From assembly GCA_021108395.1 (NCBI GenBank), contig JAIOQZ010000027.1, positions 62,001-126,000 of the forward strand: a stretch of DNA of 64,000 nt. The letters run 5' to 3'. The notes beneath the pieces are model-generated. The model ran no database searches, was not told the origin of the DNA, and worked only from the letters and a program-made list of their open reading frames with translations. This document shows positions 28,610 to 56,392 of the stretch, in pieces. This DNA comes from Candidatus Cloacimonadota bacterium (GTDB lineage Bacteria > Cloacimonadota > Cloacimonadia > Cloacimonadales > JAIOQZ01). The translations under genes and the position numbers were made by a program. The stretch's first letter is position 1, and every line of letters begins with the position of its first letter.

Positions 28610-29932
28610 TCAGCCAAACGGAAGCGCCATCTTCCCTTTGCCCATCTTGCCGCTGCTGAACTGCCGCAGCATCTTTTTCATTTGGTCAAACTGCTTCAGC
28701 AAGCGATTCACAGCCTGAACGCTGGTGCCGCTGCCCTTCGCTATGCGCTGTCGCCGCTGGCCCTTGATGATTTCCGGGCGTTCCCGCTCCTCGGCGCTCA
28801 TAGAAAATATAATCGCTTCGACATGCTTTATTTCTTTCTCGTCAAGCTTGAGGCCCTTGAGCGCTTTGCCCGCGCCTGGCATCATGCCCATGAGCTGATC
28901 GAGCGGCCCCATCTTGCGCACCTGCTCGAGCTGGTCGAGAAAGTCGTTGAACGTGAACTGGTTCTTCTTCAGCCGCTTGGCGAGATCCTCGGCCTTTTCT
29001 ACGTCCATCGCCTCCTCGGCCCTCTCGATGAGCGTGAGCACATCGCCCATGCCCAGGATGCGCGAAGCCATGCGCTCGGGCGCGAATTCCTCGATGTCGC
29101 CGGGCTTTTCGCCAGTGCCCACAAACACGATGGGTCTGCCGGTGGTGGCCTTGATGGACAGCGCTGCGCCGCCACGGGCGTCGCCATCCATCTTAGTGAG
29201 GATGACCCCGTGAAAGTCGAGACGCTCGTGAAACTCTGTGGCCACGTTGACTGCGTCCTGGCCGGTCATGGCATCGGCGACGAAAAAGATGTAGTCGGGC
29301 TTGAGATAGGTGCGCAGCTCCTCGACCTCGCGCATCATGTCTGTATCGATGTGCAGACGGCCGGCGGTGTCGAAAATGAGCAGGTCGTGCATGTGTTTTT
29401 CGCCATAGGCCACAGCCTGCTGGGCGATGGCCAGCACGTCCTTGCTGCCGCTGCTCACCACTGGGATGTCGAGCTGCTTGCCCAGCACCTCGAGCTGATG
29501 CACGGCGGCGGGGCGATATACGTCGCAGGCCACGAGCGCGGGGTTGTTGCCGCGCTTGCGAAACAGCTGCGACAGCTTGGCGCAAGCGGTGGTCTTGCCG
29601 GAACCCTGCAAACCCACCAGCATAATCTTGTTCAGCCGGTTGTCGGGCAAACTGATGCGCTCGGCCTTGCCGCCCATGAGCGCGATAAGCTCCTCATGCA
29701 CGATCTTGACGACCTGGTGCCCGGGCGTGAGGCTCTTCATCACCTCCTGGCCGACGGCGCGTTCCTGCACGTCTTTCACGAACTTCTTGGCAATTTTGAA
29801 GTTTACGTCGGCTTCGAGCAACGCCCGCCGCACCTCGCGCAAGGATTCTTGAATATTCTTCTCGGAGAGCTTGCCCTGGCCGCGCAGCTTCTTGAAAACG
29901 CCCTCGAGCCGTTCCGTGAGTTCGCCGAACAT
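28610..29932 (-). CDS. ffh: Signal recognition particle protein Ffh
   Basis: A 440-aa SRP54 GTPase that binds SRP RNA and signal peptides of nascent membrane proteins. N domain (1-90), G domain with GLQGSGKTTACAKL, DTAGRLHID and TKMDGDARGGAAL, then the Met-rich M domain (from about 300) with MGPLDQLMGMMPG and RRQRIAKGSGTSVQAVNRLLKQF for RNA binding. Its partner RNA is encoded at 54646-54912. The start overlaps the rpe stop by one base (TAATG). Confidence 0.96.
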   Translation of the reverse strand: MFGELTERLEGVFKKLRGQGKLSEKNIQESLREVRRALLEADVNFKIAKKFVKDVQERAVGQEVMKSLTPGHQVVKIVHEELIALMGGKAERISLPDNRLNKIMLVGLQGSGKTTACAKLSQLFRKRGNNPALVACDVYRPAAVHQLEVLGKQLDIPVVSSGSKDVLAIAQQAVAYGEKHMHDLLIFDTAGRLHIDTDMMREVEELRTYLKPDYIFFVADAMTGQDAVNVATEFHERLDFHGVILTKMDGDARGGAALSIKATTGRPIVFVGTGEKPGDIEEFAPERMASRILGMGDVLTLIERAEEAMDVEKAEDLAKRLKKNQFTFNDFLDQLEQVRKMGPLDQLMGMMPGAGKALKGLKLDEKEIKHVEAIIFSMSAEERERPEIIKGQRRQRIAKGSGTSVQAVNRLLKQFDQMKKMLRQFSSGKMGKGKMALPFG

Positions 29933-53346: not shown

Positions 53347-54615
53347 TCATCTTTTGTATGTTTTCAGCCGGGCAATAATGTCCGCCTCGGCCAGGTTTTG
53401 CTGCTCGCCGGTGGCGAGGTCTCGCAGAGCAACCACGCCCCGCGCCAGCTCGTCGTCGCCCACGATGAGCGCGACATGCGCGGCGCACTTGTCGGCGGCT
53501 TTCATCTGCGCCTTCATGCTCGTTTTGTCAGGGTCAAATTCGACGGAGATGCCCGCCGTGCGCAGGCGGTGCGCCAGCGACGGGGTAACGGCGGCGGCCT
53601 GCTCACCCAGGGCTACGATGTAACCCACAGGGCGCAGAGGCTCACCTGCCGCGATTCCCTCCTCGTCCAGCGCCAGCAACAGGCGCTCGAATCCGCCTGC
53701 CCAGCCAACGCCTGGGCGGTCTTTGCCGCCCAGTTGGCCAACCAGGCCGTTATAGCGTCCGCCGCCGATGAGCGTGCTCTGCGCGCCCAGGCGGTCGTCG
53801 ATAATCTCGAAGGCAGTGCCGGTGTAGTAGTCCAGCCCGCGAACGATGCGCGGATTCACCACAAACGGCACGCTCATGCGGGTGAGGTGCTCCTGCACCT
53901 GCGCAAAATGCGCCCTGTCGTCGTCGTCCAGGTAATTCAGCATCACCGGCGCGTCCACAGCCAAATCGCGGCAGCCCTGCACCTTGCAGTCGAGCAGGCG
54001 GCGCGGGTTTTTGACGAGGCGGTTGCGGCAATCGGCGCAAAGCTGGGCTTCGTGGGGCGAAAAGTAGTCGAGCAGGGCCTGCTCGTAGGCGTCGCCGGTA
54101 GCGGGTGAGCCGACAGAGTTGATTTCGAGCCGCCAGCCTGTCAACCCCAGCTCTTGCAACAGCAGCGTCGCCACGCCAATCACCTCGGCGTCGATGGCGG
54201 GGTGGTCGGAGCCGATTACCTCGATTCCATATTGGTAGAATTGGCGGTAACGGCCTTTCTGGGGACGGTCATAGCGAAACATGGGACCAGAATAACAGAG
54301 ACGTGCGGTTCCCTGGGAGAGGTGGAGGTTGTTCTCGACATAGGCGCGCACCACAGGCGCGGTGCCCTCGGGACGCAACGCGAAGCGGCGGCCCTTGCGG
54401 TCGGAAAAAACATACATCTCCTTCTCGACGATGTCGCTGGTATCGCCCACGCTGCGCTCGAAGAGGTCGGCGCGCTCGAAGATGGGGGTGACGATGCGCC
54501 GCAAGCCGAAGCGGGCGGCTACATCGATGAAACACTCTTCGACATAACGCCACCTGTGGCTTTGCTCAGGCAGAATGTCGAAGGTTCCCCGAGGTCTTGC
54601 ATACCTGGAAGACAA
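53347..54615 (-). CDS. hisS: Histidyl-tRNA synthetase
   Basis: A 422-aa class II enzyme charging tRNA-His. GTFDILPEQSHRWRYVE, motif 2 GPMFRYDRPQKGRYRQFYQYGIEVIG and the HisA motif RGLDYYTGTAFEI, followed by a C-terminal anticodon domain (PVGYIVALGEQA, IVGDDELARGVV). The best start is TTG 54615, with AAGGAG six nt upstream; the longer frame runs through the SRP RNA gene and is rejected. It starts 31 nt after the SRP RNA 3' end. Confidence 0.94.
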   Translation of the reverse strand: MSSRYARPRGTFDILPEQSHRWRYVEECFIDVAARFGLRRIVTPIFERADLFERSVGDTSDIVEKEMYVFSDRKGRRFALRPEGTAPVVRAYVENNLHLSQGTARLCYSGPMFRYDRPQKGRYRQFYQYGIEVIGSDHPAIDAEVIGVATLLLQELGLTGWRLEINSVGSPATGDAYEQALLDYFSPHEAQLCADCRNRLVKNPRRLLDCKVQGCRDLAVDAPVMLNYLDDDDRAHFAQVQEHLTRMSVPFVVNPRIVRGLDYYTGTAFEIIDDRLGAQSTLIGGGRYNGLVGQLGGKDRPGVGWAGGFERLLLALDEEGIAAGEPLRPVGYIVALGEQAAAVTPSLAHRLRTAGISVEFDPDKTSMKAQMKAADKCAAHVALIVGDDELARGVVALRDLATGEQQNLAEADIIARLKTYKR

Positions 54616-54645
54616 ACAACGCTCCTTGTCGCGGCAACAGAAAAA

Positions 54646-54912
54646 TGTGTGTGCACCCACCGTTGATACGTAGCTCGAAAGAAAGACGGCAGCCGGCTCA
54701 AGCCAAGGAGACCGGCGGCACATCGCGTCAACCGCTTAATGCTGCTTCCTTCCGGATCTGACATGGTTCACGGCCTGCGATTGCGCCGGGCTTGGCTATC
54801 AACACCACTTACCGCCAATCAGGCGGGCATCGGCATTCGCGGGCGGGAATTCGGCCCCGCTATAGCGGATTGCGGGTACAGGGCACCGCTGGCTCCCCGC
54901 TTAGCACACACA
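54646..54912 (-). ncRNA. ffs: Signal recognition particle RNA, large bacterial type with Alu domain
   Basis: The minus-strand RNA ends pair exactly: GTGTGTGC (54904-54911) with GCACACAC (54647-54654). The S domain contains the universal GAACCATGTCAG...CCGGAAGGAAGCAGCATTAAG core (54732-54769), where Ffh binds. The 5' half shows the Alu-domain series GCTAAGCGGGGAG, GGTGCCCTGTACCCGC and GCGGGGCCGAA, matching the Bacillus scRNA from memory, with compensating changes in the CCxGC/GCxGG stem. Length about 267 nt fits the B. subtilis RNA. A T-run follows 54646. The 54616-55028 gap is otherwise without a gene; a TTGACA at 54997-54992 could belong to a promoter. Confidence 0.93.
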
Positions 54913-55028
54913 AAATATCGTTTCAATCATACTGCCGGCCATGTTGGCCGAGCCGCGTCTGTTTTCTCACGAAAAGTTATGAAATCAGATATTGGCGTTC
55001 TTTGTCAACCCCTTCTTGGCGTAAATTG

Positions 55029-55349
55029 TTATTTCGTAGGTTTCACATCGATGTATTTGCGCAACGAGGCCGCGTCGAGAGGCTCGTCGTCGTCGTCGAG
55101 ATCGTCGCCATCGTCGTCGCCGCGAATCCAGTCCGGGCAGAACAATATGTCCTCTGTGTAATCCCAGCCGTCCACGTTTTCGAGACCGAACCGGTTCAGC
55201 AGGTCTTCTTCCCACAACGAGTAATAGACCTTTTCGTCGTCAACCTTGAACACCAGCGCCGGATGGCTGAACTTGCGCAGCTCATAGTGCTCGCACTCGA
55301 TCAGGTCAAAAAACTCACGGATGCGTTCGCGCTTCTTCTCGACGTTCAT
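55029..55349 (-). CDS. Small acidic cytoplasmic protein, unknown
   Basis: A 106-aa protein starting at ATG 55349 after GAGGG. An N-terminal helix (NVEKKRERIREFFDLIECEHYELRKFSH) and a strand-rich middle (LVFKVDDEKVYYSLWEEDLLNRFGL) precede a run of Asp (about 81-91) and a short end. I do not recognise it. The longer frame upstream lies within the barrel gene and is not homologous-looking. Eleven nt downstream of the barrel gene, so co-transcribed. Confidence 0.7.
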   Translation of the reverse strand: MNVEKKRERIREFFDLIECEHYELRKFSHPALVFKVDDEKVYYSLWEEDLLNRFGLENVDGWDYTEDILFCPDWIRGDDDGDDLDDDDEPLDAASLRKYIDVKPTK

Positions 55350-55360
55350 TGCTTTATCCC

Positions 55361-56392
55361 TCACAGTGAAAATGTGTAGCTGATACCCAGCGAAAACTGG
55401 TTGGTGATGTAGTCTTTGTAGGTGCCGATGTCGGGCTTCACGCTCGATGACACCTTGCGGTAAACATGGTCGTATTCGGCGGTAAGCTCGATGTCTGGCC
55501 ACAGGTAGAACGCCGTGCCGAAGGTGACGTTGTATTTGCTGTCCTCGCGCCCGGCATGGTATTTGTCCTCGGCGTTGACGGTCTGGTAGCCGCGCTTCTC
55601 GTACTTGAAGTCGATGAACGGCCGGATGTAGCGGTTGCGGGCAATCTCCACCTTCTTGTTGCGAAAGCTCATCTCGATGATGTCCGCCTCGTAGCCGGCG
55701 ACGCTGAACTCGTCAGCGTCGATGGCGCCGGTGGGGGGCGGGTCGCCGCATTCATAGTTGCGGAAGTAGTAGAACATTTTGAAATAGAAGGTCTGGAACG
55801 AGTGCCGCCAGCCAATGCCCAGGGTGACGGCGTCGGCGTCGTATTCGGTGAAATGCTCGTTGTGATAATACTGCTCGAACTTGCCGTAAAGATACACCCA
55901 ATCCCGCCGGAAGATACGGTAGTTGGCATCGAGCTTGAACATATTCTTGTCATACGAGAACTTGACAATAGCATCAGTCGCGCTACACACGTCGATGTAG
56001 TTACGCAGCCAGGTGTCGGGATAGTAGCCATAATAGACGTTCACCGCCAGCTTGCGCCAGTCGAGCTCGAGACCCGTGAGCAAACTCGTGGTCGATTTAT
56101 CGGTGTTGCTGGCGTAGTAGTCGTAACCGCCCTTGACCATTGGCGAGATGCGCCAGTCACCTACCTGCGCCCTCATGCGGCCCCGCAACCAGGCATTGAC
56201 CAGGAAATCGTCGGTCGTCTCGGCCCAATCGAAGTAATCCTCGCCTGCGTCGAACCGATTGATATCCTTGTCGGACAAGTTGAAAACGTTGTCGGTGTAG
56301 GCAAACCCGGCGCCTGTGTCAATCTCCCATACGGCGTGCAACGTCGCCGCCAGCAACACAGCCAGTATCGTCATAATCGCGTAGCGAGTCAT
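55361..56392 (-). CDS. Outer membrane beta-barrel protein
   Basis: A 343-aa protein with a clear signal peptide (MTRYAIMTILAVLLAATLHA) and alternating aromatic/polar strands: WEIDTGAGFAYTDNVFNLS, KGGYDYYASNTDK, VYLYGKFEQYYHNEH, ISYTFSL at the end with a terminal aromatic-hydrophobic pattern. This fits an outer-membrane barrel of about 16 strands. Its substrate is unknown. Transcribed as first gene of a pair with the small acidic protein; separated from the pgs operon by a terminator. Confidence 0.78.
   Translation of the reverse strand: MTRYAIMTILAVLLAATLHAVWEIDTGAGFAYTDNVFNLSDKDINRFDAGEDYFDWAETTDDFLVNAWLRGRMRAQVGDWRISPMVKGGYDYYASNTDKSTTSLLTGLELDWRKLAVNVYYGYYPDTWLRNYIDVCSATDAIVKFSYDKNMFKLDANYRIFRRDWVYLYGKFEQYYHNEHFTEYDADAVTLGIGWRHSFQTFYFKMFYYFRNYECGDPPPTGAIDADEFSVAGYEADIIEMSFRNKKVEIARNRYIRPFIDFKYEKRGYQTVNAEDKYHAGREDSKYNVTFGTAFYLWPDIELTAEYDHVYRKVSSSVKPDIGTYKDYITNQFSLGISYTFSL

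Follow-up and report, generated by a model that had tools for sequence, protein, structure and literature searches.

The analyzed stretch of DNA, hereafter the window, is 64 kb long (C2:62001-126000 of genome G000) and carries on its minus strand an SRP RNA gene, which is preceded by genes for an outer-membrane β-barrel protein and a small acidic protein and is followed by hisS (Table 1). The cmscan of positions 54400-55200 revealed that the Rfam model RF01854 (Bacteria_large_SRP) covers 54909-54649 over its whole length (model positions 1-256 of 256) with 185.2 bits and an E-value of 1.1e-32, the gathering threshold of the model being 60 bits. In clan competition, in which lower-scoring overlapping matches of the same clan were suppressed, RF01854 outscored the small-SRP model RF00169 and spanned all 261 nt, rather than a small SRP RNA alone being returned in 54702-54796. 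This is the sole Rfam match above threshold within the window and the sole large-SRP match across the 2.9-Mb genome. Three extra terminal pairs (UGU/ACA), read from the sequence outside the Rfam match, extend the RNA to predicted ends at 54912 and 54646 (267 nt), and a T run (54645-54641) follows directly. The preliminary description, which had proposed a 267-nt large SRP RNA with an Alu domain and paired ends in a possible member of the Cloacimonadota, is thus borne out in RNA type, extent, and source. The assignment to Cloacimonadota follows from genome G082, which belongs to the order of the window and shares an identical 6720-nt rpoB locus with the named Cloacimonadota record L054 (isolate Tobar13.5m-G51). 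According to the Rfam match and the alignment, the S domain is present with its Ffh-binding GGAA tetraloop and internal loops, and ffh lies in the same genome. On its sequence, the RNA is an ordinary member of the known family RF01854.

Table 1. Features of the SRP RNA gene and related genes in the window (positions are those of the window).
Feature	Positions	Strand	Evidence or remark
SRP RNA gene, large Alu-type, including extended terminal helix	54646..54912	-	RF01854 match, three terminal pairs, T run
Alu domain: 5' strand of terminal helix, hairpins 3 and 4	54855..54909	-	Rfam alignment; compensatory changes in all three helices
Terminal helix, closing strand (Alu domain)	54654-54649	-	Rfam alignment
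AGCGG loop of Alu hairpin 3	54901-54897	-	First AGCGG in the 267-nt extraction
CCGCU Alu loop, complementary to AGCGG of hairpin 3 (candidate loop-loop pseudoknot)	54864..54868	-	Invariant in 32/32
S domain (Ffh-binding hairpin), part kept in small-SRP relatives	54702..54796	-	RF01854 match; aligned to f6 and f7 small RNAs
GUCAGAUCCGGAAGGAAGCAGC: S-domain GGAA tetraloop and asymmetric loop	54741..54762	-	Core columns invariant or nearly so
hisS, downstream neighbor, probable TTG start at 54615-54613	53347..54615	-	PF13393, 3.4e-46; start read from sequence
Small acidic protein, upstream neighbor	55029..55349	-	No Pfam match; ORF with shortened start; cluster C12, common to f1, f3, and f7
Outer-membrane β-barrel protein, second upstream neighbor	55361..56392	-	PF13505; cluster C13, common to f1, f3, and f7
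ffh (SRP54), protein partner of the SRP RNA	28664..29926	-	TIGR00959, 579 bits; ~25 kb from the SRP RNA

The hisS gene probably starts ~31 nt downstream of the SRP RNA at a TTG codon preceded by AAGGAG; with the mechanical start at 54723, the ORF would overlap the RNA. The ffh gene corresponds to G000:C2:90664-91926. The location given earlier, directly upstream of hisS and away from ffh, agrees with this arrangement.

Single-sequence thermodynamic folding of the RNA was unremarkable (z -1.5); therefore, the evidence for the SRP RNA lies in the covariance match and in covariation, not in stability. We aligned 32 large SRP RNAs from eight Cloacimonadota families and scored them against the Rfam-type Alu helices. 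Both sides had changed in 8 of the 20 Alu pairs, and all three Alu helices showed compensatory changes; a single pair of hairpin 4, for instance, occurs as G-C, A-U, U-A, and C-G. The number of compensated cells in the Alu helices was 30, compared with 6.1 in shuffles (none of 500 shuffles was as high), and control structures in which the partner strand was slid gave only 0 to 3 pairs with both-side changes. Across the whole RNA, RNAalifold analysis of the 32 sequences found compensatory changes in 46 of 79 pairs. The AGCGG and CCGCU loops are complementary and invariant in all 32 sequences, and so give no covariation signal for a contact between them; this invariance would suit a candidate loop-loop contact. 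These patterns indicate that the Alu helices are kept by purifying selection and are not decaying. Such selection bears on the alternative that the S domain alone is functional, the Alu part being either a relic or a processed-off leader. Relatives do live with the S domain alone (see below), and a simple promoter and terminator scan found no consensus promoter and no terminator, but compensatory helix changes together with invariant loops in 32 genomes of eight families are the mark of purifying selection and make this alternative extremely unlikely.

The phylum scan comprised 125 Cloacimonadota genomes, mostly metagenome bins with between 10 and 700 contigs, and 104 of them had an SRP RNA match. 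The large form was found in 51 of the 104 (50 genomes at ≥135 bits, plus G084 with two partial matches at contig ends), and the other 53 had the S domain only. The form follows the family without exception among these 104 genomes: the large form occurs in families f1 (that of the window), f3, f5, f8, f9, f10, f12, and f13; in the same order, f2, f4, f6, f7, and f11 have the S-domain-only form. The RNAs of the latter are ~90-100 nt long, compared with ~261-267 nt for the large RNA of the window, and RF00169 was the best match at all 15 of the small-RNA loci tested. A search for the Alu-loop pattern found it in 49 genomes, every one of which belongs to a large-RNA family. The 59 genomes of the small-RNA families had no occurrence; by this exact pattern, which a strongly diverged piece would escape, no separate Alu piece was found elsewhere in them.

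The mixture of large and small RNAs might in principle be a binning artefact, with SRP contigs placed in the wrong genomes, given how many members are fragmented bins and that the partial matches in G084 lie at contig ends. However, no family is mixed, nearly all genomes have one match each, and G001, a single-contig genome of 2.2 Mb, has a small RNA. An artefact of this kind is accordingly highly improbable.

Several loci differ from that of the window. In f13, the large SRP RNA gene follows yidC in the same orientation, often within 4-55 nt. The yidC gene at the f13 locus L233 (1497-3301) matched PF02096 and PF14849 of Pfam, and its ORF cluster also occurs at the f13 loci L006, L020, L021, L026, L029, L231, L232, and L234; that is to say, the f13 arrangement links the targeting RNA to a membrane insertase gene. 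Two f13 genomes, G116 and G117, have large SRP RNAs of ~290 nt (L231 1520-1811 and L232 1589-1877), with an extra ~25 nt, apparently forming a hairpin, in the hinge region. Genome G089 contains two full-length large SRP RNA genes that differ from each other, on C67 (L009) and C19 (L242). A hisS-like ORF follows each of them, and their upstream genes differ; the second gene may be a duplicate or reflect a strain mixture in the bin.

The history of the two forms was examined in an rpoB tree and in a tree of rpoB plus Ffh under a mixture model; several deep branches of these trees were weakly supported. The early-branching families have the large form (f12 and f13 in the rpoB tree, f13 in the rpoB plus Ffh tree), and every f12 and f13 genome with an SRP RNA match has it. 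The small RNAs occupy two places: (i) f2, f4, and f11, which group together with a support of 89 in the rpoB plus Ffh tree and are unresolved in the rpoB tree; and (ii) f6 and f7, which share a clade with the large-RNA families f1 and f3 with a support of 98-99. Constraining all small rows to one clade was rejected by the AU test (p-AU 0.0078). Outside the phylum, the outgroup Latescibacterota had full-length large-SRP matches in 48 of 64 genomes. Because the early-branching f12 and f13 are all large and the outgroup is mostly large, retention of the large form in the lineage of the window is favored over gain. Because the large form would be ancestral and the small rows do not form one clade, the Alu domain would have been lost at least twice; given the weak deep branches, the number of losses ranges from two to four. 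The earlier suggestion had left the matter at retention or gain, and retention is the part that stands.

The f7 locus shows how one loss may have occurred. The gene order of β-barrel protein, small acidic protein, SRP RNA, and hisS is the same in f1 and f3 (large) and in f7 (small). The f7 small RNA can be aligned to the f1 S domain; its end is a short closing stem, after which a T run follows. Reading and folding of ~213 nt on its upstream side and ~175 nt on its downstream side revealed no recognizable Alu hairpins. This fits trimming of an orthologous gene at the same locus. Since the f7 RNA lies on its own contig between the same neighbors as in f1 and f3, it was apparently trimmed in place, and a misbinned contig is an unlikely source of it. 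The same locus bears on the opposite direction of change, that is, a gain of the large form in the lineage, whether the RNA was extended there or was acquired from Bacillota or Chloroflexota by transfer. The patchy occurrence of the large form within the order, and the very similar Alu loop sequences in those two phyla, would be expected from such a gain; but it would sit poorly with the uniformly large matches of f12 and f13 and the mostly large Latescibacterota, and with S domains and neighbors being alike in f1, f3, and f7, for which deletion at one locus fits better than import. We regard a gain as very unlikely. The reading that we prefer, with a probability of roughly 0.93, is that the window contains the bacterium's single SRP RNA gene, in the long Alu form that it inherited from the phylum's ancestor, and that two or more lineages of the order have deleted the Alu domain. 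It is also likely that this ancestral domain was repeatedly deleted in place within one diderm order, which would provide natural pairs with and without it, and that its loss is tolerated or compensated somehow.

The large form is not confined to this phylum and Latescibacterota. The Alu-loop pattern was found, among the matches listed, in Bacillota, Chloroflexota, Actinomycetota, Dormiibacterota, Armatimonadota, Rokuibacteriota, Coatesiibacteriota, and others. Since Latescibacterota are mostly large and matches to the pattern occur in so many phyla, the Alu domain is widespread among bacteria; to find it in a diderm phylum is no surprise by itself. The rarity implied by the preliminary description was therefore overstated, with the large form in about half of the Cloacimonadota that have a match and also in other phyla outside Bacillota. 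In the open-access literature, we found neither a paper on SRP RNA in Cloacimonadota nor one that surveys the large form phylum by phylum; its broad distribution may already be evident from the Rfam species lists or from the Rosenblad 2009 survey, which PMC8230904 cites.

Targeting by Ffh and the S domain is standard for the SRP family. By analogy with this role elsewhere, the S domain of the RNA in the window would bind Ffh and direct ribosomes engaged in membrane-protein synthesis to FtsY and the translocon. The Alu domain, judging from B. subtilis, from eukaryotes, and from its conserved anatomy, may slow elongation, and its deletion in at least two lineages would leave an RNA of 90-100 nt, once at the same locus. 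Slowing of elongation by the Alu domain has been shown in eukaryotes and was proposed for B. subtilis from ribosome profiling (PMC4359368, PMC8230904).

Among Ffh, HU, and YlxM, we found no protein partner that tracks the Alu domain. All 71 good genomes have both Ffh and HU. In B. subtilis, HU is the proposed partner of the Alu domain; in the phylum, it was found in 122 of the 125 genomes, those with large and those with small RNAs alike, and does not discriminate between the two RNA types as a marker of the Alu domain. YlxM (PF04297), considered as an Alu-linked partner, gave weak matches only, which were scattered over both groups.

Bacteria have been described as split into Gram-positives with the Alu domain and Gram-negatives typically without it (PMC4359368, citing Regalia 2002), which has raised the question of how Gram-negatives cope; Shine-Dalgarno-like pauses have been proposed as their substitute for the domain (PMC4359368). 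The Cloacimonadota contain close lineages that differ in the Alu domain, with at least two independent losses, one of them a clear loss at the same locus. Because such close lineages with and without the domain exist, the idea of compensation can be put to the test: pause signals or ribosome profiles could be compared between neighbors. The lasting point is that repeated loss of the Alu domain inside one order provides natural pairs for asking how bacteria manage without it.

Comparison with known systems places the RNA of the window closest in anatomy to the B. subtilis scRNA type (RF01854), with which it shares the full length, the end helix, the two Alu hairpins, the long hinge helix, and the S hairpin with GGAA. 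The differences are that (i) it belongs to a diderm phylum outside Bacillota; (ii) the Cloacimonadota are without a credible YlxM, in contrast to the control genomes of B. subtilis and Lactococcus, which have a YlxM-family protein; and (iii) the SRP RNA is linked here to hisS and, in f13, to yidC. The E. coli 4.5S type (RF00169) has the S domain in common with the RNA of the window, but it is ~90-100 nt long and has neither the Alu hairpins nor the Alu end helix. To our knowledge, bacteria are without SRP9/14. The Alu domains of the eukaryotic and archaeal 7SL and 7S RNAs have a comparable 5' pair of hairpins, the loops of which are able to pair, and in eukaryotes, the domain has a role in elongation arrest (PMC8137916, PMC8230904).
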